Below, one piece after another: positions 13,801 through 57,727 of a DNA stretch of 64,000 bases. This DNA is from Hygrophila difformis (taxonomy: Eukaryota; Streptophyta; Magnoliopsida; Lamiales; Acanthaceae). Made by a program: the position numbers and the translations under genes. Below the pieces are notes generated by a model. The model worked only from the letters and a program-made list of their open reading frames with translations, was not told the DNA's origin and did no database searches. Every line of letters begins with the position of its first letter. The first letter of the stretch is position 1. Where the stretch lies: NCBI GenBank assembly GCA_030278955.1, contig JAOANR010000015.1:17221917-17285916 (forward strand). Reading direction: 5' to 3'.

Positions 13801-13844
13801 ATTTCATATTCTAATACCCCAAACCCCCTCCCAACAGCCAGGCC

Positions 13845-21081: not shown

Positions 21082-21197
21082 ATCACGAGGAATCTAAATT
21101 TGATCTTCCCCATCATTAGTCCCTCCTAATGAACCATCGCCAATCTCACGCAATCAGCTGGCAAATTCCTGGGTTAACTTTCCAATTAGTAATAATG

Positions 21198-27862: not shown

Positions 27863-30800
27863 ATGAATAGAGAAGGTGGCTCTGTCTCGAGACCTCCTCT
27901 GTTTGATGGTTCGAATTATCCATTCTGGAAGAATCGAATGAGGATATTTCTTAAGCATACTGGTGTAGATGTCTGGAATGCTGTTCTAACACCCTGGGAA
28001 CAACCTATGAAAGAGGTCCGCATGCCTGCTACTGAAACCTCTGCTGCCATTACGACTTTTGTCCCTGCTACTCAAGAAGAAATGTCAGCTGCTCAGAAGA
28101 ACAAGGAACAAGGGAACAACACGGCGTTGAATTGTCTATTCAATTCTGTGGATGAATCACAATATCACATCATTTCAAACTGTGAGACATCTTATGAAGC
28201 CTGGACTGCTTTGGAAGCAGCCTATGAAGGATCTGCTGATGTTCAAGCCTTGAAGCTTCAGAGAATTGAATCTGCTTTTGATAGTATTCGGATGCAAGAA
28301 GATGAGAATATTGCTGCTTATCATGCTCGGTTCAAGAAGTTAGTAAATGAAGCTCAGTCTTTTGGTTTGAAGTATGATGATGCAAAGTTCTGAAGATGCT
28401 GAGGACAGTTACTCGAAGATATCAATCGAAGGTGTCCACTCTTGAAGAACTTGAGAAGACCAAATCCTTTACTCTTGAAGCATTGGTTGGTTCACTTCAG
28501 ACTTTTGAAATGAACTACTTGGAGGAAGAGCCTACATGTAATCTAGCTTTCAAAGTTGAAGATGAGATTCAGTGCATTGACAATGTAGAAAAGGCTTACC
28601 TAACGAAGAAATTGGCAAGGATGTTACAGGACAAGAGATCCAAGAAGCTGAACTACAAGAAAGATGATAAAGGACGTTATCAGCGAGGTGTTTCATCATC
28701 TCGTGAACAACCTTCCAAGCACAAGTCAGACAATTCCTATGACATGAGGAAGGGTTATAAGAAGATGGATTTACCTGACACATTCAAGAATTTAAAGTGC
28801 TATGATTGTGAAGGTGTTGGTCATAAAGCCTGTGAATGCCCTACTGCTAAGAGAAGGATTGGAAAAGCTCTTCAAGCTACCTTAAGTGATGGTGAGGTCA
28901 GTTGTTCTTCCAAGGAGGAAGGAGATGACAGCGAGGATGAGGAGATGTTAGCCTTTACTGTGAAAGACATTGTTCTAACAACCGATGACACTTTGTCCAA
29001 ACATTTGTCTGATACAGAGTCTCATGAATCCGACAGTGATGCTAGTCGATATGATTATGATGAACTTCTTGCAGGTTTTGAATCGGTGAAAGAAGATCAT
29101 GCAGTTGTTGTTGCAGAGAACAAGAAATTGCTCGATCAGAAGGGAGATTTACTGGTTCTTATTGATGAGAAGGATGCTGAAATCACAAGTCTCAAGGAAT
29201 CTTTGGCTACTGTATCTACTGAGAGAGATACTCTATTGGAGGAAAACGCTGCTTTGCTTGCCAAGACCCAGAAGATAGATAACATGGTTAAAGGCAAAGA
29301 TAAGCTGGATGAGATCATTAATCAAGGGAAATCACCATCCAATAGAGAAGGTATTGGGTACAAGCGCAACTCTAGACCTAACAAGAAATCTGCACCTACT
29401 TTTGTGCGTGCAGGTACCCTTGAGACCAGCTCATCCAAAGCACCTGAGAAAGTTGATTGTCCAGAGTCCCCCAAGAAGAACAAAGACTGCCCTTATTGTA
29501 AATTCCAAGGTCATCCAGTTCAACTCTGTCAAAGACTTACTCAAGATCTTCTTGGTGGTCGCCCGGTTGTTTGGCCATCGCTGGAACTACAGAAGCAGGT
29601 CAAACTTACTATGATGTGGATTCCCAAATCCAAGATAGTCCCCAAGATGTGCCTTGTTGTACTTTCGGCTCAGAAAGGACCAAATGATGGTAAGTGGTAC
29701 TTTGACAGTGGCTGCTCTCGACATATGACTGGTAAAAAGGATTTTCTCTTTGATTATGTGAAATCTGATTGTGGGGAAGTACTCTATGGAAATGGAGCTC
29801 GTAGCAAAATCTGTGGATATGGGAAAGCAAAGGGTGCAAACATGGGTTTCTTGACTACAGTGTACTATGTTGCTGATCTATCTACAAATCTTATCTCCAT
29901 AAGTCAACTTTGTGATGAGAAATTCTTTGTTGGTTTCACTGATGCGGATTGCATGGTTATTGATCCTGCTTACAATTGTGTCATTAAAGGAGTACGATCA
30001 TCTAACAATTGCTATGTCTTAAAGCCTGCTGTGGAATCAGTCTTTTTGTCACAGGTTGAAACTGCAAAGTTGTGGCATCAAAGGTGTGGGCATATGAATT
30101 ACAAATCTCTTATTCAACTTAGCAAGTCTGGCGTTGTTCGAGGGTTGCCCAAACTACAGAGCAAAGCCAAGGTAGTCTGTGGTGCTTGTGCTAAGGGTAA
30201 ACAAATTCACTCCTCTCACAAAGTGGTGGATACCATTCAGACCACAAGGTGCCTTGAGCTACTGCACATGGACTTGATGGGACCAACAGAAGTGCCAAGC
30301 CTAGGTGGTAAGAGGTACATCTTTGTATGCGTTGATGATTTCTCTCGTTATACTTGGGTTGATTTCTTTAAATCCAAAGATGAGGCTGTTTCAGTGTTCT
30401 CTAAGCTATCTTTAAAGATCATGGCTGAAAAGGATCTCAAGATAGGGCGTATTCGATCTGATCATGGGAAAGAGTTTGAAAATCAGTTGTTCGCACAACT
30501 CTGCAACAACCTTGGTATTGCTCATGAATATTCAGCTCCCCACACTCCACAACAGAATGGCGTGGTTGAGCGTAAGAACCGTACTCTACAGGAAATGGCT
30601 CGATCTCTCCTCCATGCTAGTAATCTTGGGAAACGTTTTTGGGCTGAAGCTGTTAATATCTCTTGCTACATCATTAATCGAGTGTACATGCGACCTCAGA
30701 CAACCACTACTCCTTATGAGATTTGGAGAGGAAAGACTCCTAACATTTCTCACCTTCATGTCTTTGGAAGTATGTGCTATGCTTTGAAGGATCGAACTAT

Positions 30801-32676
30801 TGTCAAAAAATTTGATTCCAAATCTGATGAAGCCATTTTCTTGGGATATTTAGTGGATTCAAGAGCTTATCGTGTTTACTTGAAGAGATCTTCAAAGGTT
30901 ATTGAGACTATTAATGTTGTCTTTAATGATGCTAATCTCTCTGCAGGCTCTGTCTCTCCTCATGATGATGATGATGATCCTATTCGGATTATTCCTCATG
31001 TCTCCTCCAGTGCAAGTCCTGAAGTAATGCCTCCCTTAGATCCTATTGATGTTTCGGATACTGAAGATGGTGATCCGGTTGTTGATACAACTGGTGAACA
31101 ACCTTCAGCTCCAGATTCTCCTAAAAGGAGAGGTCCAAAACGTGGTCCACGAGCACCTAAGTATCACTCTAAGGATGATATTATTGGCGATCCCTCTGGT
31201 CCTAGACAGACTCGAGGTCATCAATTAAACATTTCTGAATTAGCCAATATGTGCTTTCATATTATGCATTGTTTTGTTTCATCTATTGAACCTAAGAATG
31301 CTAATGAGGCTTTGCAAGATGAGTTTTGGATAGCTGCAGTGCAGGATGAATTGCTACAATTCAAACGCAATGATGTTTGGGAGTTGATGGAACAACCAAC
31401 TGGAGTGAATGTCATTGGCACTAAATGGGTTTTTCGCAACAAAACTGATGAACATGGAAAGATTATTCGCAATAAGGCTCGCTTGGTTGCACAAGGCTTT
31501 ACTCAGATTGAAGGCCTGGATTATGATGAGACATTCGCCCCTGTTGCTCGCATCGAGGCTGTAAAGTTATTACTTGCTATTTCTTGCTCTCTTGGTTTTA
31601 AACTGTATCAAATGGACATCAAAACCGCCTTTCTGAATGGCTACATCAAGGAAGACATCTATGTGTCTCAGCCTATTGGTTTTGAATGCCCTGATCATCC
31701 TGATTATGTTTATAAGGTCAAGCGTGTTCTTTATGGTCTAAAGCAGGCTCCACGTGCCTGGTATGAACGCTTGTCCACATATCTCTTGGATAAAGGCTAT
31801 GTGCGTGGTAATGTTGATAAGACGTTGTTCGTACAACGTACAAACAACCATCTATTAGTAGCACAGATTTATGTGGATGATATTGTTTTTGGCTCTACTT
31901 CAGATGATCTTCGAGATGCTTTTGTACACTCAATGCAAACTGAATTCGAGATGAGTATGATGGGTGAGCTCACATTTTTCTTAGGGCTACAGATTAGGCA
32001 AACCTCTGATGGGATCTTTCTTAATCAAGAGAAGTACGTTGGCACCATGCTTCAGAAATTCAAAATGGAAGATTGCAAGATTGCTAAATCACCCCTAGGT
32101 CAGCATGATAAGATTTTCAAAGATGAATCCGGGATTTCTGTTAATCAGAAAATGTATCGAAGCATTATTGGAAGTCTCTTATATCTCACTGCTAGTCGTC
32201 CGGATATCTCCTTCAGTGTTGGTGTGTGCGCTCGATATCAATCAGATCCTAAAGAATCTCACCTTCGTGCTGTGAAAAGGATTCTTCGATATATTAAAGG
32301 AACTCCTGGCCTTGGTCTCTGGTATTCTAAATGCTCCTCACTTGAGTTAATTGGTTATACAGACTCTGACTGGGCTGGTTGTTCTGACGACCGAAAATCA
32401 ACCACTGGTGGTTGCTTTTATCTTGGTCAGAACTTAGTCAGCTGGTATTCTCCTAAGCAAAATGTTGTTGCTTTATCTACTGCGGAAGCTGAATATATTG
32501 CTGCTGCCCATTATTGTACTCAATTGATTTGGATGCGTCAAATGCTGTTGGATTATGGTATTTCCTTGGATGATTTCCTTATTCACTGTGATAACACCAG
32601 TGCCATTAATATTTCCAGGAATCCAGTCCAACACAATCGGAGTAAACATATTGACATTCGATTTCACTTCATCTGA
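27863..32676 (+). pseudogene. Copia gag-pol polyprotein with one frameshift and one premature stop
   Basis: Gag opens at 27863. The frame breaks at about 28391, where the first reading stops and the next opens at 28396 and runs to 32676 (1426 aa). Domains: Gag UBN2-type region; CCHC zinc knuckle CYDCEGVGHKACEC at about 28798-28840; a coiled-coil linker; protease DSGCSRHMTG at about 29705; the integrase HHCC zinc domain (HQRCGH, then CGACAKGK); a DDE core with LHMDLMGP, SDHGKEFEN and PHTPQQNGVVERKNRTL; RT with KARLVAQGFTQ, QMDIKTAFLNG and the catalytic YVDDIVFGS at about 31870; and RNase H with YTDSDWAGC, STAEAEYIA and HCDNTSAI. A stop at 32674-32676 cuts the last residues of RNase H; the same frame continues to about 32813. 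The domain assignments are firm. Confidence 0.93.
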
Positions 32677-40774: not shown

Positions 40775-40804
40775 TATTTGATCAACGTTGTGGTGTTCAA
40801 CTAG

Positions 40805-40920
40805 CAATTTCGTTAGGGTGCAATCACCCTTTTTGACTTGATGTGCTGTGGGCATTTACAGCCGTTGATTGTCTTTAAAAATCGACGATTGAGATTAACT
40901 CTAAGGGTAGAAAAGTAATT
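40805..40920 (+). repeat. MULE left terminal region
   Basis: The conserved core GTTAGGGTGCAATC (40812-40825) is inverted at the right end. A second phrase, CTTGATGTGCTGTGG (40837-40851), occurs at the right end (52677-52691, one mismatch) in the same, not inverted, orientation. Confidence 0.65.
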
Positions 40921-41071
40921 TCATATATTTGCCATATTGTTCGCCGTTGGACGTCGTCTTCTTTGGATTTCCGAGTTCTCTTCTGTTTTTTTTTTTTTTG
41001 GTGACAAGTTCTCTTCTGTGTTTTGTTTGCTCTGTACGTGTTGCGGCGGTGTGAGGAAGTTGTTGGCAATT

Positions 41072-44000
41072 ATGAATGCGATTAGCATGTCGTTGAATGT
41101 GTCGGCAACGTTTTCAGATTCGAGTTCTGCGTCCAATGGTACTTTTTAGCATTTTCGAATTTTGAGTATTTTTATCGCAGATCGTCGTTTTTGATTTTAT
41201 GTATGTTTTTTGAGTTTTGAGTTCTTCTTTGATATGTTTCTCTTTTTTTATGTTTTCTGAAGTTTCATATCTATATGTTCATTTAAGCGTCAAAACGTTT
41301 GCACATGTGATTATGAGGGACAGAACCATTATATTTTCAGCGATGTAAGCTTAGCATTTTCAGCGATGCATCACTAGCATTTTCAGCGATAACTGTCTAG
41401 CGTTTTTGAGTTCTTCTTTGATATGTTTCTTTTTTTTTGTGTTTTCTGAAGTTTCATATCTATATGTTCATTTAAGCGTCAAAACGTTTGTACATGTGAT
41501 TATGAGGGATAGAACCATTATATTTTCATCGATGCATGCCTAGCATTTTCAGCGATGCATTTCTAGCTTTTTCAGCGATAACTGTCTAGCATTTTCAGCG
41601 ATGGACGTTAAGCATTTTAAGCGATGGTTTATGTCAGCTACGTGTATTTATTATTTTAATGGGAATTCTTTGTTTATTTCTTCACAGGCAACATAAATTG
41701 GAGTGAGTTAAGTTTTGTTACAGCTGATGATGCGTTTAGGTTTTATTGTGATTATGCTCATAGTTTAGGTTTCTCGGTAAGGAAAATGTATGAGAGACCA
41801 AAGCCACATGAAGTTGATAGATTGTTCTATTTACAATATGCGTGCAATAAGGAAGGTTTTCGTCGTGGTTGTTTGTTGGATAGTGATTCATCTTGTCGTT
41901 CTAAGAGTCTGAAATTTCGTAGGAGTGATGAAACCCGAACTGGTTGTGAAGCAAAGGTGAGGTTACATTATAAAACTGATGAAAAAGTTTATAGAGTTGT
42001 GTTTTTCTGTGGTGATCATAATCATGATCTGCATGGACCATCAAGGAAGCATATGTTGAAATCGAATAGAAGAGTTGATGAGTTACACAGTGTTGTTGCT
42101 GGTATACATGAAGAAGTTGGATTGTCATTGAAGTCATCGTATGACTTGTTGAGTATGGGTGCTGGAGGTAGTGGACTTGTAGGATTTTTAAAGGACGATT
42201 TGAAGAATGCACTTGTTAGAAGGCGGCAAAGAAATTTAAAAGTAGGGGATGCTGGTGTTGTATTGAAGTATTTCTCTGAGAAATGTGTCAGTAATCCATT
42301 TTTCTTCCATGAGTATGATCTGGATGATGATGAGAGAGTTACAAATATCTTTTGGTCAGATGCTGAAATGAGGATGGATTATCAAGCTTTTGGTGATAGT
42401 GTGACCTTTGATACAACGTATCGGACAAATAAAAATTACAGACCATTAGCTGTTTTTGTTGGATTCAATCATCACCGACAGACTTCTATTTTTGGAGCTG
42501 CATTGATGCTTGATGAAACTCAAAGATCATTTGAGTGGCTATTTAAAACATTTTTGAAGTGTATGGGGGATAAGGCACCTCAAACGATTTTCACAGATCA
42601 AGATTGTGCGATGGCACCGGCAATTAGGAAAATTTTGCCTAATACCTATCATGCTTTATGCAGTTGGCACATTATAGAAAATGCGAAAAAAAATTTGAGT
42701 CAACTGTACACACCAAGGTAAATATTTAGTTATTTTTACTTTCAATTGTTTTTTTTGATTTGGACATTGATATGTACATGTTGAACTCATTTTTTTAGTT
42801 TTGATAAGCTATTTCATCATTTGGTATATGATGTGAGGACAGAGATGGAATTTGAGGTGGAATGGGAATACATGCTATCAACTTGTTTCTCACAATCTGA
42901 ACATAGGTGGTTGTCGACTACTTATAATTTGAGAAGTCAATGGTCCGCTGCTTGGGTTAAAAATCATTTTACTGCAGGAATGAGGACTACTCAACTAAGT
43001 GAATCTTTTAACTCAGTTGTGAAACGGTATGAATAAATTTCGTTTTCAGTGATAGTTGAATAGTTATTTTCAGCAAGACAATACTGTTTTGATCAGCGAG
43101 AGGGTTCTATTTATTTCAGCGATGTGTGTTTGCTTTATGTAGTTGAGAATTTGATTTTCACATCCCCATATTGTGTTGACATTTCACAGGTTCTTAAGGC
43201 CAGTTGATAACTATGTTGAGTTCTTTGCACATTTTGAAAGGGTTGTGGAGTCAAGGAGGGATAATGAACGGATGGAAGATTTTAAGGCAGATGATAGACA
43301 AGTTTCTGCCAGGTTTATTATGAATCCACTATTGAAATATATAGCTGAGAAGTATACACCAAATGTGTTCAATATTTTCAACAATGAGTATGATTTGTCA
43401 TTTGGGTATGTGGTTGAGCTTCAACCAGATGCATTAATTTATCGTGTTTGCAAGAGAGAAGATGCAGATTCAAAGTTGATTGGTGATCATGTGAATGTTA
43501 ACATTGATGATGGTACAATTGGATGCAGTTGCAATATGTTTGAGAATATGGGGATTTTATGTTGTCATGCTCTGAGGGTGATGGATATTCTGTCAGGAAG
43601 TGGAGCAAAAGTGTTTCATACTATTCCAGATAAATATATTTTGCGGCGGTGGTCAAGGAATGCAAAATGTGATCTTAGTTATGTTGATGTTGGTGTTGGA
43701 AAAGAAACAAATGTGGTCAATGCAGCATCTAGATACCGGAAATTGTGTGGCTTGTTTTTGAAATCAGCAATTGTGTTGTCACGAAATGAGGATGCTTGTG
43801 AATCGTTTATGTATGACTTTGAGACATTGATGAAAACAAAGTATGACAACATTGATATTAACAAAGAGTCGGGTAATTTCTAATCAAAGACATATTTATG
43901 TTTTTGCTTTTTTTTAAATTAGTGTTTCTCAATGTTTTTGGTTTTTTTTTTTTTGCAGAGATTGGAAGTACATCAGATTACTCAAATTTGCATTTAAGGG

Positions 44001-44095
44001 AAAGAGAAACTTGTAAAGGGCGGAAGAAATCGAACAAGAGAATGGTCTCTATTTCTGAAGCTGTTCGGAAAAAAGAAAGATTTAGAACATCGTAA
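41072..44095 (+). CDS. FAR1/FRS-type MULE transposase (714 aa, five exons, intact)
   Basis: Exons 41072-41138, 41688-42717, 42799-43026, 43190-43872 and 43959-44095. All introns are GT-AG, phases agree, and the joined frame is 2145 nt with no internal stop. Residues about 32-125 form the FAR1 zinc DNA-binding domain (YACNKEGFRRG, a later C in RTGCEAK, then DHNHDL). The MULE transposase core spans about 255-450: first catalytic D at residue 264 (FDTTYR), second D at 326 (FTDQD), CSWH at 347, and an E in LSESFNSVV. A SWIM zinc finger follows at about 552-575 (CSCNMFENMGILCCHAL). The C-terminus is short and basic. The family includes host regulators FHY3 and FAR1 as well as transposases; its place inside a TSD-bounded element argues for a transposase. 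Introns 1 and 3 contain the element's motif, and exons do not. Confidence 0.9.
41214..41626 (+). repeat. Left motif array inside transposase intron 1
   Basis: Two tandem copies of a 189-bp unit (41214-41402, 41403-41591) each start TTTTGAGTTCTTCTTTGATA and end in motif clusters. TTTTCAGCGATG or TTTTCAGCGATA occurs at 41334, 41357, 41380, 41545, 41569 and 41592, then TTTTAAGCGATG at 41615. Spacing within clusters is 23-24 bp. A one-base variant (TTTTCATCGATG) sits at 41523. Related unit sequence recurs at 49440-49830. Confidence 0.85.
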
Positions 44096-44189
44096 ACGGA
44101 TGCAGAAATGAAGATTTTAGTTTTTTTAGAAATGACATGAAGTGTATTGTTCATTAATATTGTATTGATCGACTTAGTTCAGTGATAAC

Positions 44190-44620
44190 TAATGCAATTC
44201 AGCGATGATTACTTATATATGAAAGCGATGATCGTTATGCAATTCAGCGATGAAAGTTAGTTTTAATAAAAAAAATAACCGTGTAGTATTTAATAAGAAA
44301 ATGTTACAATGTCTCAGAAAATTGCGTAAAGAATGCAATTCAGCGATGATTACAAATGATAAAAAGCGATCGTCATAGTGCAATTCAGCGATGGAGATGA
44401 GTTAATAAAAAATAACAGTGTAGTAGTTAATAAAAATTTTACAATGTTTTTTCAGAATTCGCGTAATTAATAAAAAATAACCGTCTAAGTAATTAATAAG
44501 AAATAACCGTCGAGATTTCACCGTGTAGTATTTAATGTCAATTTAACCGCCAATTTTCAATTTATCACTGTCGATACTTTCTCTAGGGCTTTTCAGCGAT
44601 TTAGCGATTCTCTGCGTCTA
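44190..44620 (+). repeat. Motif cluster between transposase and PMD-Ulp1 genes
   Basis: At least seven AGCGAT cores on the plus strand (near 44201, 44224, 44246, 44340, 44365, 44386 and 44596), most as AATTCAGCGATG. They lie in the 590-bp gap between the two genes, so they cover the 3' flank of one and the promoter side of the other. Confidence 0.8.
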
Positions 44621-44688
44621 CGGCGAACGGCGATTGTTTTTCTACGGCGAACGGCGAACGGTGATACTTTACTTTTTGTTTATCAAGA

Positions 44689-47600
44689 ATGGCTGAAAAA
44701 GTGCATACTCAGGTCTGTTGCGTTCCATCTAGCATTTGTCTTTTAAATAATATCCTGAACGAGAGTGACGGAGATGGGAAGAAAGAGTTTATTCACGATA
44801 CTTGCTTCAGTTGTCTGCTCATGTTCAAAATGTGCATGCTCAAGGTTGATCCTGTTATAACTTTGATTAATCAGTGGAGCATTCAGGAGGAATGCTTTAT
44901 TATTGATAAAAACCGTCGATGGAGGTTTACAGATGAAGACATTCATAAAGTATATGGTTTGCCATGGGGAGTCGATAAGTTTATAATAGATTTGAAGAAT
45001 AATGAAATTGGTTATGATTTTGCTGATGAATTTTGTGAAAAGTATTCTCTTATTACGAATAAGAAGGAGCCTAATCGGATACCTGTTAAGGATCTTAGAG
45101 CTATTTTAGAGAATACGGAGAATAATGAAATTCCATTGGATGACTACTGGAGGATGTATGTTTTGTTTGCTCTGCAGAAAGTCTTTACTCCTAACTCAGG
45201 GAGGGTTGTAAACAAGAGGTATCTTCAGTTTCTTAGATCTCCGGAAGAAGCTTTAAGGTACAATTGGTGTCTTCATATTAGACAATTTCTTATCAAATCT
45301 CTGAATGAGTATAAGGCAAAATTGGATAAGGGAACCAGTGCTCAAGCACGCCCCTGTGGAGACCTGTTTTGCTTAATGGTAATTTTAATTTTGTGTTTTT
45401 TATGCAATTTATATTTGTTATGTGATATATATTGTTGATTATGGTCATTGTTTGTTGATTATGTATCTTGTTTGTTTTTGTTTTTTTCAGCACATGTTTT
45501 TTGATTTCTATGAGCGTGAAGAGCTTCATTTGGTTGGATTTACTTGTAAAAAGGATCGATACTTGGAGATGGTTGATATCTGGAAGGTTTTCCCTAATGC
45601 AAAGTATCCAGATATTGACTTTAAGAAGAAATCGAGGGCTACGAAAAGGACTGTGGAGGAAGATGACGATCGACTTAGCACTTTTGTTTCTGGTCTAAAG
45701 AAGAAAAGGAGGGGTGGGAAAGAAGTGGAAGATGAGGGTTTGAATTCTACTGCAAATGAACCAACTGCCAATCTTTCTAGGAGTGTGGATGGAGGAGGAG
45801 ATGAGCAGTTAGGAGAAAATGTGGATTTGAATGCTAGTGGAAATGAAGAAGCTGCCAATCTTTCTAGCTTGCAGCCTATGTATTCACCTGTTGTCCATGA
45901 AGCTAATGCAAATGAGACAACTGATTCTGAACCAGTTGTTCATCTTTCTGATCACACAATGGACTCTATTGTGAAGATTGCTTGCCAATATATGGATGCT
46001 GATGCTTCAGGCAATGTTGATCCTCTCATAGAAGCATCCAGAAATGATGTTGAACCTTCCCCACACCCCCCTGTGATCAAGATGCAGGTGAACTGTTGAT
46101 TAATGTGGGTCGACGTCGTGAAGGAGAACAGTCAAATAATCTTGATATAACTGCAAGCGAAGGAGAAATCTTGATGGGTATATTAGCAGGAGCAGGAAAT
46201 GTTGTGATGAGTCAAGGGGGTCCGGAGGTGACAAGTTTGCTGGAAGGAGGTGATGCAGATGTTGGGAATGTAAAAGACAAAACTGAAGAGAGAGTTGCCC
46301 CGGACACTGAAAATTTACCTGAAAATGTACCGAAGGTAGTTTTATAAATTTTGTACTTCATAATATTTTTTGAAGGTAGTTTCTGACATTCTTTTTTCTT
46401 TTTTGCTTTTTCTGTGTTGTTTATTTTTATTGCAGAGATCTTTATTTCGATTCCGAATCCCTTTCAGTTTCGATTCCTTGAATGTATGTACAGTGACAAA
46501 ATGTTTGCTATAGGGGGTTACTGTAACAAACTGTTTTGATATATTTTTCTTGTGTGATTTTTAGTTAGCACATGATGGGGCAAAGAAAGATGTAGCACAT
46601 GACGGGGCTGAGAAAGATGCTTCACATGATGTGGCTGAGAATGCAGAGGTACTGTACTAGTTTTCAGCGATGGTCTCTGTGTTTTTCAGCGATGATATTG
46701 ACCACATTTCAGCGATTTGGATATGATTGATATATTTTCTTGTGTGACTTTAGTTTTTAATAGTTTTTAGCTATATCAATTGTGATGTAACAAAATGTTT
46801 TGATATATTTTCCTTGTGTGATTTTTTAGTTAGCACATGATGGGGCTAAGAAAGATGTAGGACATGATGGGGCTGATAAAGATGCAACACATGATGTGGC
46901 TGAGAATCCAGAGGTACTTTAATAGTTTTCAGCGATGGTTTCTGTGTTTTTCAGCGATGAAATCTTTCACATTTCAGCGATTTGGATATGGTGATTGATA
47001 TATTTTCTTGTGTGACTTTAGGTTTTAATAGTTTTTAGCTATATCAATTGTGATGTAAATAGAGGTATTTTCTCTAATTTACTCTAGTATGTGTATAGAT
47101 GCATGGAGAAGATGTGCCAACCTTTTCTTTGGGCTTATCCGAGAATGAGAATGTTGTAAGAGATGAGAATCCAGAGGTACGTCAATAGTTTTCAGCGATA
47201 ATTTATATGTTTTTCAGCGATGACACTATTCATATTTCAGCGATGATTGATATATCATCTGTAATTTTCAGGAACAAGCTAAGACAGTTCATAGAGCTAA
47301 GACAATTGAGAAATTGAAGGAGAAGTATATGCCTCCTAGAGTGATGATGATTGATCTCCAGCCTATTGAAAAATGCAACAAGTTTACATTCATGGATATG
47401 ACTTATACCCGATTTAAAGAATATCCAGAATTTAAGGCGTCATATACCTGTACTCCAGAAGAGTTGAATGTGGCTGTTTGGGCAATCATTACAAATATTC
47501 TAGGAAAGGTTGAAGCGAAGAACACAATCGTTTATGATGATAAAGAAATGAACTTGTCGAAGCTTGACATCGAAACACTGAGGGTTGATAGTGATATTGC

Positions 47601-48512
47601 GGATATTGTTATAAACTGTTACGCGAAAGTGATCAACCGTCGTGAATTCGAAAGAGCCAATGGGAAACCAATGCTGAAATATTGTTTTTCATCATTATTT
47701 GCTGTGAGTCTGATATATATATACATACATATATATATATATTCAACTTCTTTTTGATGCATGATATGTTGTATCTTTTGAAACAGACATTTTCAGAGGC
47801 AGAGGTGGATGCAGATTTACCATTAAAAGATGGTGCAGAACTTGTTGATGCATTCGTGAAAGATTTCAAGTTTTTTCCTGAAGAAATGATTGATGTGGTG
47901 TTGAATGCAGAGAGTGTAAGATACATTTTTGTTTTGATAATTTTGTTTATATTGTTGATCATTTTTAGATTCTAATTATATGTTTTCTCAATGTTCCAGT
48001 TCTTCTTCCCATATTGTCGACAAAACCACTGGGTTGCTTTTTCTGTTGATATGAGAAAGAGAAGAATTTTTTACTTCAACAGCAAGAATGCTGAAGGCGG
48101 GTGGACAGCTGATTATAATGTTTTGAATAGGATATGGTATAACTTGAGGATGCTGGGAAATACACTGATGAAATCTGAAAAATGGTTTGCATCATATCGC
48201 ATGCTTTTCTCGCCGCTTGCAGAGCAGAAAGATGAGCACAGCTGCGGTGTTTTTGTCATGTCTTATATGGATTATTGGGAAGGATTAATTATGGATGACA
48301 TGTTGGCAGAAATGAAGAACAAGAGGTATAATCTGGCAAAAAGAGCCAAGGTCTGCGCTGAAATATTGATGTCAGATGTCAATCAAAAGAAAGATTTTGT
48401 GCTAGGAGAAGTGAGTAGAGAGATGCAGTTGGTTGCCCAGCATAGTCAGTCATTTGAGGTAAAGAAACCAGCACCACCTAAGCCAAAAAAGAGTCGGAAA
48501 AAGAAACAATGA
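44689..48512 (+). CDS. PMD/DUF1985-like plus Ulp1 (C48) cysteine protease gene, ten exons, one frame slip
   Basis: Exons 44689-45378, 45491-46335, 46436-46483, 46565-46648, 46830-46913, 47099-47176, 47272-47703, 47787-47915 and 48000-48512; the second includes a frame change, so nine blocks are certain and a short extra intron at 46088-46131 would make ten. The N-terminal 280 residues (LINQWSIQEECF, WRFTDEDIHKVYGLPWG, LRYNWCLHIRQFL) resemble the PMD/DUF1985 domain often found before Ulp1. An acidic low-complexity middle follows. The C-terminal protease has His at 48027-48029 (QNHWVAF), Gln at 48225-48227 and Cys at 48243-48245 (EQKDEHSCGVFV), a correct Q-x5-C. The usual catalytic Asp position reads Asn (YFNSKN, 48078-48080). 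Ulp1 enzymes cleave SUMO from proteins. The frame slips around a C6 run at 46066-46071, by indel or alternative splicing. Confidence 0.78.
46565..47260 (+). repeat. Tandemly amplified exon-intron modules carrying the motif
   Basis: Exons 46565-46648 and 46830-46913 (both 84 nt) encode near-identical peptides built on repeats of AHDGAKKDV and HDVAENAE. Each is followed by an intron starting GTACT with three motif copies (46661, 46683, 46706; and 46926, 46948, 46971). A third, diverged module is exon 47099-47176 with motifs at 47189, 47211 and 47234. The module period is 265 bp. Motif spacing is 22 then 23 in all three introns. Confidence 0.88.
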
Positions 48513-48679
48513 TGAAATGAAGTGTTTTTGATGAATGAATGAACTGTTTTTTTTATGCGATGGATGACATCGCTTAAATGTATATGTAAATTTTTCGTTG
48601 CTGAAATGTACATTGTTTCATCTGTTAAATGTCTATTGTTTAATCGGTTATATATATTGCACTTTTTGTGATCGCTTAA

Positions 48680-49273
48680 ATGTACATCTCTTTATTCTTA
48701 CATGGGCATTGTAAATTATGGAGTATTATTCTCTATTTGGCTGATTTGGAGCGATTCGGTCAGGTTGGGATAGCTGAAAAAGGAACTGATGTGGATCCTG
48801 AGGTTGGGATAGCTGAAAAAGGAACTGATGTGGATCCTGAACATGCTGAGCACATCAGACTTCTAAGGGAAAAAGTGCTACATGAGATAACGCGTAAGAA
48901 CTGGCCAGTGCTGAGAAAGAATGCAAGACAGTACAGATTGATGAACAAGGCTGAGGCAGAGGAGTATCTGAAATATGATCTGGCACAAGATATGTCTTAT
49001 TTAAAAGAAGCCCTGGAAAGAGACATGGTGTCCGCCATGATGGAGCGTTACAGAATTTCTTATCTCGAACTCCTCATGGAAATGGATCAGAAGGCCCTGG
49101 ATTATTGTAACACAGGAAATAAAAAGAAGATCATGCATTATGATTACAAATTCAGAAGTCTAATCTGCAAACGTATAAAAGGAGCATGGGAACTGATGCT
49201 GGTGAGGATCACCAATCCACAATTTGTGAGAGATTACTTGAGGTTTGTAGATAATCAGTTTGGCCAAAAGTAG
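48680..49273 (+). CDS. MULE-encoded protein of unknown function
   Basis: The open frame runs 48680-49273 (197 aa); the true start may be an exon boundary near 48763, because the first 25 residues are hydrophobic and unlike the rest. A 39-nt unit is repeated exactly in tandem from 48763, giving the peptide VGIAEKGTDVDPE twice. The remainder is helical and charged (LREKVLHEITRKNWPVL, YLELLMEMDQKALDY) with a basic C-terminal part. No known domain seen. It lies 250 bp after the Ulp1 gene's stop, on the same strand, and could also be a 3' exon of that gene in another splice form. Confidence 0.55.
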   Translation: MYISLFLHGHCKLWSIILYLADLERFGQVGIAEKGTDVDPEVGIAEKGTDVDPEHAEHIRLLREKVLHEITRKNWPVLRKNARQYRLMNKAEAEEYLKYDLAQDMSYLKEALERDMVSAMMERYRISYLELLMEMDQKALDYCNTGNKKKIMHYDYKFRSLICKRIKGAWELMLVRITNPQFVRDYLRFVDNQFGQK

Positions 49274-49314
49274 AAGAAAACAGTTTTGTGAAAACGTTTG
49301 TAGATGTGATTATC

Positions 49315-49910
49315 AATTTTTCAGCGATCAGTTGTAAGCATTTTAAGCGATGGTTGAATATTCTTTTCAGCGATGAATATGTATTCTTTTCAGCGATGTG
49401 TATATAGCATTTTTCAGCGATTTGTATATGAGCATTTTATGCGATTATATGTATGTGTTGTGATATGTTTCTCTTTTTATGAGTTTTCTGAAATTTCACA
49501 TTTATACATTCATTTAAGTGAGTTCTGAGTTATGTTTGTACATGTGATTATCAGCGATGTCAAGAGCAATTTTTTCAGCGATGTGTAAATGGCATTTTAA
49601 GCGATGGTTTTGTATATTTTTCAGCGACATAGAGCAAGCATTTTAAGCGATGGTGATAGATCGTCGTTTTTTGATTTTGTATGTATGTTTCTGAGTTCTG
49701 AGTTATGTTGAGCGATGGACATCAAGCATTTTGGGATATGTTTTCTCTTTTCTGAGTTTTCTGAAAATTTCGTATTTATACATTCATTTAAGCGACAAAA
49801 TGTTTGTACATGTGAATATAGCATTTTAAGCTATGGTTCTATATTGTTTTCAGCGATGATTGGTAAGTCTTTTAAGCGATGGGTCTATGTTGTTTTCAGC
49901 GATGGAAGGA
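49315..49910 (+). repeat. Motif array downstream of the unknown gene
   Basis: Plus-strand motifs start at 49318, 49341, 49364, 49387, 49411 and 49435 (last a variant), spaced 23, 23, 23, 24 and 24 bp. Further copies lie near 49548, 49574, 49595, 49641, 49707, 49851, 49870 and 49893. TTTTCAGCGATG and TTTTAAGCGATG alternate. Segments resemble the left 189-bp units (TTTCTGAAATTTCACATTTA, CATTCATTTAAG, TTTGTACATGTGA). Confidence 0.88.
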
Positions 49911-50102
49911 AATATATTTCGTTTTTATGGAGTGGCCTAAATGAAATGGGCCTAAATAAAATTAAATGGGCCTCGGAAAATTTTTTAAATTGTGAGCCTT
50001 ATAAAAGGAATCACATTCATTTCTCGAATCTTCATTTCTAAACCGTTTCTCAAAACCCTAATTTCTCAAAACCGTAATCGGAATCACCTTCATTTCTCAA
50101 AA

Positions 50103-51141
50103 ATGTCGTCCAAAAGAAGATGCACGGAAGAGAGTTCCAGTCGCACATCCGACTTGTTCACACAATGCTGGGAGATGTTCGGGAATTATCTGAAGGACAC
50201 ACATCCCACGTGTGACAATGCGCGCGGACTGAATGATTTGATAGAAAAAATGTTAAACGCTGGGTATGTGCCGAAGAAGCATCAGGATATTCTTATTGAA
50301 ACACAGGTATTTCTTATTGAAATTACAACTGAGTATGCTTAGGAACCTTTTGGTTGGAATTGTTTTGAACTGATTTATGGTTTTTAATGTTTTTTTGAAC
50401 TGATTATAGTTGTTCTAGGGTTACGAATTGTTTCAGTGTTTTATATTTGAACTGTTTGAACTGATTATGGTTGTTCTAGGGTTATGAGTTGTTTTAAGTG
50501 TTTTATGGTTGTTTTAGTTATTAATTGTTTTTTTACTGATTATTGTTGTTTTAATGATTTTGTTTTGAACTGATTATGGTTGTTTTTTAGTGATATGAAT
50601 TGTTTTTGTACTGATTATGGTTGTTTTAGTGATTGTTTTGAACTGATTATGTTTGCTTTTGTACTGATTATGGTTTTCTTTCTTATATTTACTTTGTTCT
50701 CTCAATTGTACTTATTGTTTCAGTGCTATGAATTGCTTTGTATCTTATATTTACATCTTATATGTTAATAAGCTATCTTTCTTATATGTTGAAACACAGG
50801 ATTTTCTGTTGAAAATTATAACTGAGTATCCTGATATTGAGGCTGCTGAAAGATCTTATAACATCATGTATCCCCACTTTGAAGCTCTGGATATTCATAT
50901 TGGTGTCCTCCAAAATGAAGGCAGATCTAATGGTGCTGATGTCAACAGACGTTCATTTGATCCCACACAGCTGCGTGAAATGTCAAATCACTATCGCAGC
51001 GTGAAAGTCTCATTTGCAAATACTCCAGCGCAGTTGAGAGAACGCAAAAAGGCTTTTACAAATATGTGGGAAGATCTGATTCATAGGCTTAGGGCGATGC
51101 ATCAAGCCATCTCTGATCCATCTAATATCCCGGCTGTTTAA
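50103..51141 (+). CDS. MULE-encoded small protein, two exons, unknown function
   Basis: Exon 1 50103-50306 and exon 2 50800-51141 join in phase to 181 aa. ATG 50103 follows an A-rich leader with repeated CTCAAAACC. The N-terminus is basic and Ser-rich (MSSKRRCTEESSSRTSD), then helical (WEMFGNYLKDTHPTCDNARG). Exon 2 carries helices such as LREMSNHYRSVKVSF and RKKAFTNMWEDLIHRLRAMH, possibly a coiled coil. No known domain recognised. The intron opens with a copy of the exon 2 start: GAAACACAG followed by a TTTCTTATTGAAATT-like phrase, then a stop, so intron retention would give a 79-aa protein. The intron body is a degenerate repeat of TTTTGAACTGATTATGGTTG. Confidence 0.65.
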
Positions 51142-51424
51142 TATGTTTTTGGAATGTGTTTTGAATGACTCTTGAATTGTGATGTTTTTGGAATGACTTG
51201 TTCTTTGTGAAGTTTTTGGATGTTTTTATGACTTTTTTTGAATGGTGGTGTTGAATCTGTTTTTGGATGTTTTTTGGATGTGTTATGACTGTGATTTTGA
51301 ATGGAATGTTGAAAGTTGAATGTTTGATTTATGGTTTGATTTTATGGTGTTGAATGTTTTATGACTTTGAATGGATTTAACTGGTTTTAGTGTCTACGAA
51401 TTGTTTCAGTGATTTGCGGTTTTT

Positions 51425-52450
51425 ATGCTCTATCGCTGAAAAGTACATAGTGAACTCGCTTAAAAGAATAGTTGTTCATCGCTGAAAAGTCATAACATCT
51501 CTGCAAAGTGTATTCGCTTAAAGGAATCTCAATCATCGCTGAAAATAATAGAACAATCTCGATGAAATGAAGCACATACCATCGCTGAAAAGTATAATGT
51601 TATATCGCTGAAAATAATGATACAAATTAATATGTTTTAATTAGGAATCAATAATTTCGTTAAAAATAGTATCTTAAAGAAAACAGTTGCACTTCATCAA
51701 TAGTGTACCATTATTTTTCAAGTCATCGCTGAAAATAATGGCACACTCTCGCTGAAATGAAGTTAGTTATATCGCTGAAAAGAATAACTATGTATCGCTG
51801 AAAATAATGATACAAATTAATATAATTTGTGTCAGTAATATGTTGTAATTAGGAATTAATAATTTCGTTAAAAATAAAAACATATGATGTATCGCTGAAA
51901 AGTACAAAGTGAAATCGCTTAAAGAGTATATCATTCATCGCTGAAAAGAGTAGTAAACATCGCTGAAAAGATATAATATCTCTGCAAAGTGTAGTATCTC
52001 GACGAAAACAATTGCACTTCATCGAGAGTGTACAATTATTTTTCAAAAGTCATCGCTGAAAATAATGACGCACTCTCGCTGAAATGAAGGGATATCCATC
52101 GCTGAAAAGAATAATGTTGTATCGCTGAAAATAATGATACAAATTAATATAATTTGTGACAGTAATATGTTGTAATTACGAATTAATAATTTCGTTAAAA
52201 ATAAAAACATATGATGCATCCTGCATTCTGCATCGCTGAAAAGATATAATATCTCTGCAAAGTGTATTAGATGCACATCTCGGAGAAAGGAATTTGAAGT
52301 CATCGCTGAAAATAATGTGGCATTCTCGCTGAAATGAATAACACTCCCTCGCTGAAAAGAATAACGTTGTATCGCTGAAAATAATGTTACACTCTCGATG
52401 AAATGAAGCATAGTGATGTATCGCTGAAAAGAATAATGTTTTAATTAGGA
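51425..52450 (-). repeat. Right motif array (reverse orientation)
   Basis: About nineteen copies of ATCGCTGAAAA (reverse complement of TTTTCAGCGAT), plus variants CTCGCTGAAAT, TTCGCTTAAAG and ATCTCTGCAAAG. Cores at 51433, 51456 and 51479, and at 51892, 51915, 51938 and 51960, are 22-23 bp apart. A longer unit containing AATTTCGTTAAAAATAAAAA recurs near 51660, 51865 and 52190. The array fills the space between the last gene and the right terminus. Confidence 0.9.
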
Positions 52451-52599
52451 ATTAATAATTTCGCTAAAAATAAAAGCATAGTGATTTTTAGTGATTTTTT
52501 CTGTTGTAAGATATTTTAGGATACAAATCCGTTTAAGATATGCAATAAATCCGTTAAAGATACGTACTAATCCGTTAATTTCGTAATTAATAAAACTGT

Positions 52600-52720
52600 T
52601 CCATATTTTAATTGGACAACTTTACCCTTTTGCATTTACAACCCTTGGATTTTAATTGGACGATCAAGATTTTCGCCTTGATGTGCTGCGGATTTGTTCA
52701 ATCGCACCATAACCGGACCC
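52600..52720 (-). repeat. MULE right terminal region
   Basis: Read inward it begins GGGTCCGGTTATGGTGCGAT, pairing with the left end. An internal phrase, CTTGATGTGCTGCGG at 52677-52691, has the same orientation as its left-end counterpart. Confidence 0.65.
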
Positions 52721-52900
52721 GTTCAACTAGAGCATCCTTATTGTGATTGATCTGATACGCAAGGCAGCGAAATGTTCATCTCAGATTCAGAATATGTAAA
52801 CAATTGTAGTACCATATATGGTTCGAGAATCTCTACTTGCATAAAATGACAATTTCATATCCTAATACACATTAATACTCCCTCTGTCCCAACTGAAATA

Positions 52901-53653: not shown

Positions 53654-54976
53654 TTAGCTAATGTTACACTCTCTCGAGTTCCCACCCTCATCTGAAGGAT
53701 CTCCATCTGAAAAACCCAAGACATATGCCTCAGCATCCTCATCATCATCATCATCATTATCACTCTCAGTATCAAATCTGTTGCGTCTTCTTTCGATATA
53801 CACTTGTGCTTGCCTCTGGTGCAGGTGTAAAACATGCATGATCACCTCAGGAGTGACCGTAACCCGGGAATGGCTATCCCCACCTAGCTTATTGTCTTCA
53901 ATTATCTGGTCACATTTTGGACAGATTGTAAGAAACAACAAATGGGATTGAAGCAGGGATTAAGAAGTGTCTGGATTAAAGTCTACCTCCTCAGCATTAT
54001 CGGGCAGAGGATTAACATCATCAGTTGATGGGCTCCAAAGCCTTATAGTTTTTTCTATCCCGCAAGAAGCAAGGATTGGGATTGTCGGGTGAGGTTCCAG
54101 CTGATTCACAATATGTCTATCACCGACCATCATACGGATGAGCTCACCGCCCTTTTTCTTCCAAATGAAAATATGGCCGCAGTCGGATCCACTAACAACA
54201 TATTCATCGTTCGGGCCAAAGAAATTCACTCCTTTGACTGTTTGCGCATTCCTATGACCTGAATAAACTTGTGGCTCTGCCACTCCATCTGTGCCTTCAG
54301 ATGATAAAGGCTGGGGACCTGAGCCATGTACGTTTTTCCTTGGAAACAAATATAGGAGCTCTTCATTATACGAGACAAGCAATTCACTCATTCTGGAGTA
54401 AGTTAATGAGGTAATGTGTGCTTCATCTTTCCCAGTAAGGTGATGGGGGCAAAAAGATTCAATAGGGGTTCCAGCTTTACATGATGCATTCATTTGGTAA
54501 TGCCTGATGTCATAAACACGAGCATACATATCAGCACCTCCTGCAGCAAAATAATTAGGATTTCTTGGGTCAATTGCAATGGAATTCAACCCAACAGGCC
54601 AGGTGTGTTCTGGATTTGCAGAGCAATAGAACAGCTTGGAAGCAGAATTGCTTCGTAGATCATACTGCAAAAGAATGCCAATCAGCACCTATTAGGTATG
54701 GAAAGAAAAAGCGGGATTGAACAGTTGCAGTAAAAAGGCATACATGTTGGACATAACCATCCTCCCCACAGCTGTAAAAGACATAAGGGCTTCCCGGTTC
54801 TACAGCAAGCTTGTGGACCCGACCTTGATGCTTGGATAATCTTTTTGTTTCTACTGAACCATTCTCCAGCACCTGGCTTAGCCTAACCTGAAGTAGGAGC
54901 ATATTTTAAAGAATAAGGACGTATCTCCTGCTCCTGTCACTCAGGCCAGTGAATGGGATTTTCAGATATTTATATA

Positions 54977-55015
<39 letters not shown>

Positions 55016-57727
55016 CAACTATTATTCCACGGCTACTAGGTTTCCCCTCAGAAACTAAATTTGCCACCAAATAATAATTACTATAAGAATGAGTCAGTGT
55101 TGTAAAAACTCTCAAATGCCAAATTACCTGGCAATCAGCAGATGAAGTTACTATTACACGATCATCACTGAATGGCATGAATCTGGTCTGGAATATGTTG
55201 TTTGAATGACCAGATGAATAAGAAAACTTAAGTTTCAGCCTTGCCCAGTCCCAGACCTTTACTTGTCTGTCATCTGAACCTGACACGAGAAGCTCACCAG
55301 TAGAGTTAAACTCAATAGCATTCACACAACCACGGTGGCCAGAGAGTTTTCCATACAAATCAATCTGCTTGATCAGGGTCTGCAACAGTCAAGAAAATGT
55401 GCAATCACTCACAAGATCATCATCCAGAAGTGAGACACTGGCCATTCAAAAACTCTAAATCTGAATATAATGCAGAAAAGAATTCGAGAAGGATATAGAA
55501 ATCCGCAGAACATGCTGTTAAAAGAATGGAGATCTACATGAGAATAATGGCTAATAACAATAAAAAAAAAAAAAAAAATAAACAAGGAAAGAACCACAGT
55601 ATCACATGTATAACAGACATAGTGACTGAAAAGAGAGAAATCACCATGAAGGAGCATATGTATTGATAATTTGTTGAAAGGAGAGTTAGGTTATGACTTA
55701 AGAGGTAATCATGCACAATCGTGAAGCACTGTACTTCTAGACAACCAAATATTACACATCACGTCTTTTTACCAGTAGGGCATATCATTTTCTATGAAGC
55801 TTAGTATTTATTCTCAATCAATTTAATAATGTTACACAACACAAGTTTAGCTGAAGGATAAAAATTCAATAATTCTAATTTTATACTCATTTTTGTAATT
55901 GAAACCTGGAATCAAAGTAAAGTTTAACTATGGTCTAGGCAGATATTAAAATCTTCTAAATAAGGATTTGAAATGTTTAACTATGAGATAAGATAAAACC
56001 ATCACAGCAATATTTTTCCTGGAAAATATGCAGAAACATTACCAGAGTCTTGTGTAATAGCCATAACCATAACCATAAACAATTCAATGAGATATACAGG
56101 CAACATCAGTATTGTAGGTATTAAGGACCCAGTTCTTGGGCAGTAAGAAGCAGCGACTAAAAAGGTTTGGGGAAGTTGATCATACGGTATGAGTAGCAAA
56201 GCCAAAAGCATAGAAACAATAAGATGAAAATGTCAAACTGATTTTAGAGAGTTGGCAGGTACAGTAATCACAGAAGATTACTGTTCAAGTTGCTTAGACA
56301 GATGGTAGACATCAGAAGGGTTATATACAGGCAACATCAGTATTGTAGGTATTAAGGACCCAGTTCTTGGGCAGTAAGAAGCAGCGACTAAAAAGGTTTG
56401 GGGAAGTTGATCATACGGTATGAGTAGCAAAGCCAAAAGCATAGAAACAATAAGATGAAAATGTCAAACTGATTTTAGAGAGTTGGCAGGTACAGTAATC
56501 ACAGAAGATTACTGTTCAAGTTGCTTAGACAGATGGTAGACATCAGAAGGGTTAGCTAATAGCCTAATACATACATATATGTCAAATCCCTAGTCCCCAG
56601 AAAAAAGGATTTTAAGAGATAAAAGAAGAGATACATTTGGTCTGAATAAAACGATATTTAGCGAACAAATAAGCATTGATCTATTGGTTAGTAAATCTTT
56701 TGTTTATCCTGTTGTAGTCATATTCAAATGAATGGTTTCTTGCAAAAGCCTTGTTATGATTAGAATGTTGCGATATTGCCTTCTAAAAGTAAAATAAATG
56801 CCATAGTGATGCAATCACAAATTTTGTAGTATACTGCATTTTAAGTGAAATGATAAAATAGAAGGTAACAATTGTACACCAGTGAAATAAATAAGTTGGA
56901 ATCTTAGGGACGACAGCCCATGTGTACTCCAGATGAATACATAAATATACACTAATATACTAATTTCAAATATCTGCAAATATGATACTCAAACTGCCCT
57001 GCAAATGGAAAATAATAACAAGGTTGGAAAACATGACTATAAAAACCTGCACACCTCTCCAGTCTTTTTGAGTAAACACTATACAACACTAAAAATGTAC
57101 TCCATTATCCTGTATTATGTTTGAAAGTTGAAAATACTTGTAAAGCATAGTGATTAACCAGAAAATCCTAAGCACCCATTCATAAATCTTCTAATTGTGA
57201 CGATTAGAAAACAACACACGCAATAATGCTTTTCGAAAAAATGAATCTACCTGACATACAGAGGTCCGTTAACTAGAAACACGGAAACAGAACCACCAGG
57301 AATAGCCAGCAGGGCTCTACAAACAGAACCACAGACAAAGAAATTCAGTACTCTAGCATCCAACTTAACATGATTTTCTCGTAGCTTCTCTCAACAGACG
57401 AATAACTCTAAATTCCTCGCGCATAAACCAAAAGACTCATTTGCATACCTAGAAGGACCAAAACAGACAATTCGAGATAGAAATACATCGACAAAAGTAA
57501 TTAAGCGCAAACAAACAAGTGCAGTGATTATCCAATCGCAATACCAAATCAAACATCAGTTCGCAGTCTTCACAAGATATATTCCCAAATCAGACAGGAA
57601 AAGCAGAGATCGGGTGCACCTGGGAAGCGGAGACGCGGCGAGAGAAAACCCTGGGGGAAGCAAACCCCGCCTCTCTCTTGAAGAATTCGAGCAAGCGGTT
57701 ATCGGAATTATTGAAATCCAGGCCCAT
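53654..57727 (-). CDS. DCAF8-like WD40-repeat protein (477 aa, five exons)
   Basis: Exons on the minus strand: 57727-57620, 55379-55128, 54887-54744, 54664-53987 and 53905-53654. All are phase 0 with GT-AG borders; total 1434 nt. The N-terminus, MGLDFNNSDNRLLEFFKREA then PRVFSRRVSAS, is typical of plant DCAF8 relatives. Seven WD40 blades can be read, including HRGCVNAIEFNSTGELLVSG, GHSNNIFQTRFMPFSDD, LAVEPGSPYVFYSCGEDG, GLNSIAIDPRNPNYFAAGG and PHPTIPILASCGIEKTIRLW. A YDLR at the exon 3-4 junction and VYDIR fit the WDxR-type DDB1-binding box, so the product is probably a substrate receptor of CUL4-DDB1 ubiquitin ligase. The C-terminus has an Asp-run (about ten acidic residues) and ends GNSRECNIS. 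Read-through of intron 4 gives an alternative stop at 53960. This is the best-preserved host gene in the window. Confidence 0.9.
54979..55012. repeat. (TA)n microsatellite in intron 2
   Basis: A run of about seventeen TA units between exons 2 and 3 of the WD40 gene. Confidence 0.9.
56092..56553. repeat. Perfect 231-bp tandem duplication in intron 1 of the WD40 gene
   Basis: 56092-56322 and 56323-56553 are identical base for base as far as I can compare by eye, starting ATATACAGGCAACATCAGTA and ending CATCAGAAGGGTT. No TIR or TSD. The intron (57619-55380, 2.2 kb) otherwise holds AT-rich sequence with no gene. Confidence 0.93.

Follow-up and report, generated by a model that had tools for sequence, protein, structure and literature searches.

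A phased motif array split in orientation between the arms of a FAR1-type MULE of Hygrophila difformis: candidate landing sites for a VANC-like self-protection system

To follow up a reading made from sequence alone, we analyzed a 64-kb window of the Hygrophila difformis genome (contig JAOANR010000015.1, positions 17,221,917 to 17,285,916, forward strand; the window is this whole stretch, and coordinates below count from its first base). It contains one copy of an 11,916-bp Mutator-like element (MULE) with a FAR1-type transposase gene, and this copy, in this window, is our sample. A 12-bp word, TTTTCAGCGATG, recurs through the introns and intergenic DNA of the element in an array with a 23-bp phase, in one orientation over most of its length and in the other at its right arm. 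Most likely, the copies serve as binding sites for a protein encoded by the element itself. By analogy with the VANC proteins of VANDAL MULEs, we think it probable that the array forms the cis half of an anti-silencing/activation system in which the product of the second predicted gene of the element, G2, is the binder.

RESULTS

A phased, oriented motif array in the non-coding DNA of the element

Copies of the word were picked by their core, AGCGAT. The core occurs 67 times in the window (40 plus and 27 minus), and 60 of these copies (39 plus, 21 minus) lie within the MULE, while the other 52 kb hold seven, all single cores. A first-order Markov simulation of the element (300 runs) gave an expectation of 4.3 +/- 2.0 cores with a maximum of 11, near the chance figure of about six put forward in the sequence-only reading, which had described the word as recurring across the non-coding part of the MULE. 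In an unbiased comparison of the non-coding DNA of the element with the rest of the window, AGCGAT was the top enriched 6-mer (59 found versus 0.9 expected), and the top six 6-mers and top six 8-mers in this ranking all overlap the word. The longer form TTTT[CA]AGCGATG was found 19 times on the plus strand and 10 times on the minus strand in the window scan, every one at 41.3-52.4 kb. At one relaxed cut-off, a position-weight matrix built from the 60 copies picked out 76 sites inside the element and 16 outside it; as the matrix was trained on these same copies, the outside count alone is independent. A search with a double motif found four single places in prokaryote genome contigs, all titled bacterial and two of them in 21-bp repeats, and no match in viral contigs. 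For scanning the host genome we give the word in the pattern form TTTTMAGCGATG.

Scanning by position and strand confirmed that the orientation of the array is split by arm. The 39 plus-strand copies run from 41,339 to 49,898, with none past 50 kb, and the copies beyond 50 kb are all on the minus strand (19 at 51,432-52,420). Two further minus-strand copies lie at 48,569 and 48,671. These numbers are almost those counted by eye in the sequence-only reading (38 plus, 19 reversed and 'a few' reversed at 48.5-48.7 kb). The copies are arranged as follows, with G1 to G4 denoting the predicted genes of the element listed further below.

41334-41626, plus strand: array in G1 intron 1, seven exact AGCGAT cores, 23-bp spacing inside each cluster
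43113-43124, plus strand: single copy in G1 intron 3, with a degenerate copy 70 bp upstream
44196-44609, plus strand: array in the G1-G2 interval, ahead of the G2 start codon; eight copies, made up of six in two diverged 141-bp repeats and a pair with 8-bp spacing
46661-47245, plus strand: G2 intron clusters, three clusters of three copies, one per intron in three introns
48568-48681, minus strand: two isolated reversed copies between G2 and G3
49318-49904, plus strand: array in the G3-G4 interval, ahead of G4; 13 copies, mostly at 23-24-bp spacing
51431-52431, minus strand: right-arm array downstream of G4; each of its 19 exact copies is reversed, and the variants AGCGAG and AGAGAT also occur

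Each of the G2 intron clusters comes after a small exon ending in GAG, and two of these exons lie inside a 265-bp tandem duplication. The remaining exact copy is in the open reading frame (ORF) G3. The G4 intron is free of AGCGAT and holds a different repeat family, consisting of degenerate CTGATTATGGTTGTTTT-like repeats at 50358-50700 with periods of 18 and 75 and a CpG observed/expected ratio of 0.14.

The spacing of the copies is narrowly defined. Among 56 distances between adjacent same-strand cores, 29 measure 22-24 bp (6 at 22, 21 at 23 and 2 at 24), as had been noticed for the clusters; five others measure 46 bp and one measures 8 bp, and none falls at 9-21 or 25-45 bp. The earlier equation of this spacing with two helical turns does not stand, as 23 bp corresponds to 2.2 turns of B-DNA at its helical repeat of 10.5 bp per turn.

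The copies also avoid exons, as had been proposed. The following gene models were used, with the exons of G1 placed by splice sites and reading frame.

41072-44096, plus strand: G1, FAR1-MULE-SWIM transposase, 714 aa; exons 41072-41138, 41688-42717, 42799-43026, 43190-43872 and 43959-44096
44689-48512, plus strand: G2, predicted protein of 868 aa; exons 44689-45378, 45491-46087, 46565-46648, 46830-46913, 47099-47176, 47272-47703, 47787-47915 and 48000-48512
48680-49273, plus strand: G3, open reading frame of 197 aa
50103-51142, plus strand: G4, predicted protein of 181 aa; exons 50103-50306 and 50800-51142

With 51% of the element counted as coding (45491-46336 being taken as exon in this count), a single exact core of the 60 lies in a predicted exon (48,750, inside G3) and the other 59 are non-coding. 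At the relaxed matrix cut-off, 4 of the 76 sites touch predicted exons. The outermost 534 bp on the left and 295 bp on the right of the element contain no copy of the word, also at the relaxed cut-off.

The word is conserved while the linkers are nearly random

Because copies were picked by their core, its six bases are invariant by construction. The flanking positions -5 to -1 and +6, which were not used for picking, carry 0.65-1.7 bits of information, compared with 0.01-0.38 bits at positions -18 to -6 and +7 to +18; a rise near +/-20 represents the neighbouring copies. In adjacent pairs 22-24 bp apart (n=29), identity is 79% at -5 to -1, 52% at +6 and 33% in the linkers, with 28% expected at random. 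Pairing left-arm with right-arm copies (n=779) gives 81%, 41% and 28%, respectively, again against a random level of 28%. Since identity between the arms is high only at the word, the two arrays share little beyond it.

A similar picture emerged from internal duplications of the element. In five duplications picked by hand from 34, the word has 19/347 differences and the remaining sequence 180/1143 (Fisher p 1.3e-7, an approximate value, given overlapping duplications and pairs with members in common), so that the word diverges about three times less than the rest. Among the 34 duplications, 24 include two or more motif positions, and in each of these the word has the lower rate; this set is overlapping and not independent. 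When the motif mask was shifted from -60 to +60 (121 shifts), the rate was 0.055 at shift 0 and 0.138 at the median, and the lowest single value was at +45 (0.050). The 12 lowest rates all fall at 0 to -3, +/-21-24 or +44-46, indicating that conservation tracks the 23-bp lattice. Tandem Repeats Finder identified several arrays with a 23-bp unit as well as duplications of larger units (141, 189 and 265 bp), so the copies did spread by tandem duplication. That the linkers are nearly random while the 12-bp word is kept, even across opposite arms, points to a selected motif as opposed to a mere minisatellite, and on these comparisons we conclude that the word is under selection. Because the linkers are saturated with substitutions yet not with length changes, the data suggest that the spacing is constrained as well.

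The predicted genes

Pfam matches to FAR1 (E 1.9e-15, N-terminal), MULE (E 1.6e-27) and SWIM (E 6.9e-6, C-terminal) in G1 agree with the earlier assignment of the element as a FAR1/FRS-type MULE with a 714-aa transposase (FRS, FAR1-RELATED SEQUENCE). G1 agrees with 34/34 D, E, H, C, W or G columns that are at least 95% conserved (60 of 120 fetched homologues aligned), and having kept all of these strongly conserved columns the transposase may be active. A protein search with G1 gave 650 matches at E <= 1e-3. The 120 listed are 34-42% identical, those named by organism are from plants, and many bear the name FAR1-RELATED SEQUENCE; at this identity they are too distant for a comparison of non-coding DNA.

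G2 consists of an N-terminal part with no Pfam match, a putatively variable middle with a tandem peptide/exon repeat, and a C-terminal Ulp1 domain (Peptidase_C48, E 9.5e-9). SENP2 aligns with G2 (E 0.00038), which retains H, Q and C of the active site and carries N in place of D; we take H, D, Q and C to be the catalytic residues. The 265-bp tandem unit consists of an exon plus an intron (exons 46565-46648 and 46830-46913), with three motifs in each intron. The 868-aa model treats 46088-46564 as an intron. A 92-codon open frame at 46060-46336 lies mostly inside this intron, off the frame of the upstream exon, and is followed by GT; it may represent a former exon, an alternative exon or a frameshift. 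No homologue of G2 residues 1-430 was found in the protein search at E <= 0.01, and an AlphaFold model of the first G2 exon alone (mean predicted local distance difference test score 38.9) was too poor for fold comparison.

G3 may be an independent gene or a 3' exon. Pfam returned nothing above cut-off for 48725-49273, and a shorter piece matched Tma16 below cut-off (E 0.041). A perfect 39-bp tandem duplication at 48762-48840, presumably recent, adds 13 codons to this ORF. For G4, the only Pfam match was AKAP7_NLS, below cut-off (E 0.06), and no homologues were found at E <= 0.01.

Ends of the element

The boundaries of the element were placed as follows.

40795-40804, no strand: left target-site duplication GTTCAACTAG, exact 10-bp match to 52721-52730
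40805-52720, plus strand: MULE, 11,916 bp, with degenerate inverted ends
52721-52730, no strand: right target-site duplication GTTCAACTAG, exact 10-bp match to 40795-40804

Target-site duplications of MULEs are 8-11 bp long, and the 10-bp GTTCAACTAG on both sides, next to inverted ends that are degenerate and in register, is of this kind. The same range is listed for MULEs in a published table (PMC6446971, as excerpted). A 10-mer match is by itself weak evidence for a target-site duplication, and other 10-mers also match between the flanks. The terminal 20 bases match at 12/20 positions in inverted register, and at least 12/20 is reached at random registers with a frequency of 2.4e-3; positions 8-20, singled out only once the ends had been inspected, match at 11/13 (random frequency of at least 11/13, 5e-5). 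In a free local alignment, the 400-bp ends showed no inverted repeat better than those of random pairs (score 24; control median 27), while the direct repeat of the ends, CTTGATGTGCTG, scored 36, within the controls (95% at or below 48). Since free alignment gave a null result and only the in-register comparison is supportive, we describe the element as a MULE with degenerate ends. A direct repeat, CTTGATGTGCTGYGG, occurs near both ends (40837-40851 and 52677-52691) and as an alignment is not above controls. In a BLAST search with the element, the remainder of the window yielded simple AT-repeat matches only.

The rest of the window

On its right, the element is flanked by a WD40-repeat ORF (53963-54688, minus strand), which by strand has the element downstream of it, and by a tandem duplication with a 231-bp unit and 100% matches (56092-56554). 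At the far left, a minus-strand ORF at 2-1456 with a Zein-binding domain (E 3.5e-30) is probably a host gene. The regions 9656-13803 and 28381-32673 contain, between them, minus-strand ORFs of non-LTR type with Exo_endo_phos, zf-RVT and RVT_3 domains and a copia-like plus-strand frame of 1431 codons with RVT_2, rve and gag_pre-integrs. A Pif1-type helicase fragment (Pif1_2B_dom) at 20326-21093 on the minus strand is probably derived from a Helitron.

DISCUSSION

Comparison with known systems

VANC21 and VANC6 are said, in work by Fu in 2013, to form the anti-silencing system of the Arabidopsis MULEs VANDAL21 and VANDAL6, and the abstract of Sasaki et al. from 2022 reportedly gives the determinants as the sequence of the motif, its density and helical periodicity. 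Published passages describe the targets of VANC proteins as one-orientation motif arrays that occupy introns and non-coding DNA, both intergenic and terminal; the proteins themselves are described as containing tandem peptide motifs in variable regions, with exon/intron changes associated with the repeats (PMC5735166). According to part of a 2026 review, a Ulp1 domain (KIU) is present in some VANDAL VANC genes, whose action is on motifs in non-coding DNA (PMC13317346). The same non-coding regions of VANDAL elements are reported targets of RNA-directed DNA methylation (RdDM; passages of PMC10398659). The long internal array through introns, which the sequence-only reading had considered unusual, is therefore of a kind already known from VANDALs, a different MULE branch in the same superfamily. 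What we have not seen reported is the setting in a FAR1-type MULE: in the portions of the Jittery, FAR1/MULE, Ulp1, DUF1985 and anti-silencing literature that were compared we found no report of such an array, which is no proof of absence, as a key 2022 EMBO J paper lies outside the comparison.

The array resembles the VANC21/VANC6 targets, as far as the passages from Hosaka 2017 describe them (PMC5735166), in its dense short motifs, its single orientation per region, its location in introns, intergenic and terminal non-coding DNA, and its spread by tandem duplication. Both systems also have poor inverted ends and a candidate gene (here G2) with tandem peptide repeats and repeat-driven exons. 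They differ in the motif, since TTTTCAGCGATG contains a CpG while YAGTATTAY or AGTTGTCC/AC is given there, in the FAR1-type transposase, in that neither DUF1985 nor DUF287 was detected here, and in that anti-silencing is, for our array, a proposed role. With the KIU/Kaonashi VANDALs, as portrayed in part of the review (PMC13317346), the element shares the Ulp1 domain of a second gene and the motif-based self-recognition reported for them, a likeness by description, and the transposase type differs. In KI-MULE the Ulp1 sequence is reverse to the transposase, unlike the same orientation found here, while Jittery-like MULEs of melon and grapevine have, as here, a FAR1/Jittery-type transposase with Ulp1 sequence downstream (passages of PMC2528002). 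A 16-kb mobile element of Kochia with an FHY3/FAR1-like gene likewise has four predicted genes, the first with FAR1 and SWIM; its second gene is assigned to the Ubiquitin-like superfamily and is not shown as Ulp1 (passages of PMC6808082). The published passages on these elements, with which ours was compared by description, describe no motif array (PMC2528002, PMC6808082). Finally, the TNPA-binding repeats of CACTA (En/Spm) elements are also a short repeated word (12 bp in En-1) arrayed in both arms and recognised by an element protein, as we propose for our array; they are subterminal, whereas the copies here extend into mid-element introns and stop 534 and 295 bp short of the ends, which are spared (compared with passages of PMC2613891).

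In a table of MULE groups, the excerpted VANDAL entry gives SWIM and CCHC, with PMD and/or DUF in half, and does not list FAR1, which is listed for Jittery-type MULEs and for half of a plant-containing Hop sub-group (PMC6446971). By domain content, G1, with FAR1 at the N-terminus, a MULE core and SWIM at the C-terminus, belongs with the FAR1-type MULEs and not with the VANDAL group; given the Hop entry, domain content does not by itself imply strict Jittery membership. The system would work like a VANC system without being classifiable as a VANDAL.

A VANC-like function for the array

We propose that a protein encoded by the element, most likely G2, binds TTTTCAGCGATG in head-to-tail clusters in the introns, upstream regions and right arm, with the 23-bp repeat set by the footprint of the protein. 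Bound clusters would keep the non-coding DNA free of silencing by RdDM, allowing all genes of the element to be expressed. Copies may be kept out of exons because they would interfere with coding there, and because the reported targets of RdDM in VANDALs are non-coding regions. Binding, G2 as the binder, and an anti-silencing outcome rather than plain transcriptional activation are what we infer from the sequence features described above. The suggestion in the sequence-only reading that the sites tune expression of the genes of the element comes nearer the mark than its other suggestion, binding by the FRS transposase.

Several observations weigh against this proposal. The N-terminus of G2 has no Pfam family and no homologue over residues 1-430 at E <= 0.01, so no homology link to VANC was found. 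DUF1985 and DUF287 were absent at E up to 10 from the N-terminal exon of G2, G3 and the second exon of G4, and at E up to 1 from two parts of G2, G3 and G4, in searches whose sensitivity is limited by the HMMER filters, which drop most weak matches. The FAR1 domain of G1 is not listed for VANDALs. CpG depletion, a footprint of methylation, varies by region without tracking the arrays: the observed/expected ratio is 0.39 in the array introns of G2, 1.03 in G1 intron 1, 0.98 in non-coding DNA more than 150 bp from motifs and 0.53 in coding sequence. A spacing of 23 bp fails to place the sites on one face of the helix, and G3 or G4 could equally be the binder.

Alternative explanations

The sites could instead bind the FAR1-domain transposase, internally or subterminally, and serve to assemble a transposition complex or to autoregulate, much as TNPA acts on the subterminal repeats of CACTA, which are cis-determinants of transposition (passages of PMC2613891). 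G1 does carry a FAR1 DNA-binding domain, and the mirrored orientation, plus in the left arm and minus in the right, resembles inward-pointing arrays. MULE transposase sites are expected at the ends of the element, and the motif-free ends argue against a terminal transposase site; moreover, the plus-strand array spans 8.6 kb into the G2 introns in mid-element, where sites for an excision complex are not expected. The part of the earlier proposal that holds is that the array behaves like protein-binding sites; the transposase as their binder we regard as unlikely. A shade more doubtful is that the copies are ordinary promoter or enhancer elements for a host transcription factor or a factor from G1-G4, co-regulating the genes without anti-silencing. 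The arrays that precede G2 and G4 and the one in G1 intron 1 occupy usual enhancer places, but 60 copies at fixed spacing, 19 of them downstream of the last gene, appear to exceed what a promoter would need, and in the closest studied case VANC21 caused hypomethylation also in copies with no detectable transcriptional activation (passages of PMC5735166).

A functionless minisatellite, in which a 23-bp unit expanded neutrally by slippage and unequal exchange, would readily account for the 23-bp arrays and the 141-, 189- and 265-bp duplications. It would not lead one to expect a word that is kept between arms whose linkers are at random identity and is some three-fold less diverged within duplications, nor spacings that below 46 bp are all 22-24 bp (bar the 8-bp pair) despite substitution-saturated linkers, nor copies that occur in both orientations and avoid exons, and we find this explanation very improbable. 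Least credible of all is that intronic copies act as decoys that tune splicing. TTTTCAG resembles the consensus of 3' splice acceptors and the clusters located in introns are all in sense orientation, but the 19 right-arm copies share the word equally while being antisense to all four predicted genes, the conserved word runs on through CGAT, for which acceptors have no need, and many copies are intergenic. Double-stranded RNA formed between the arms was considered and set aside, as the arms share little beyond the 12-bp words.

Implications

It is quite possible, if somewhat short of probable, that sequence-specific anti-silencing has evolved in, or been captured by, FAR1-type MULEs outside the VANDALs, with a new CpG-containing, 23-bp-phased code and a binder whose N-terminus falls outside known families. 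In that case, this logic would have at least two origins, or would have passed from one MULE clade to another together with the Ulp1 gene. The proposal makes a specific prediction, in that it names the word (TTTTCAGCGATG), the 23-bp phase and the G2 protein, and if true it may provide a new sequence-addressed tool to remove silencing in plants. It would also reach relatives of the elements from which the FHY3/FAR1 transcription factors arose, as well as relatives of the FAR1-bearing Kochia element linked to duplication of the EPSPS gene (passages of PMC6808082). Coded landing pads for self-protection would then be a wider strategy of large autonomous MULEs and no peculiarity of VANDALs.

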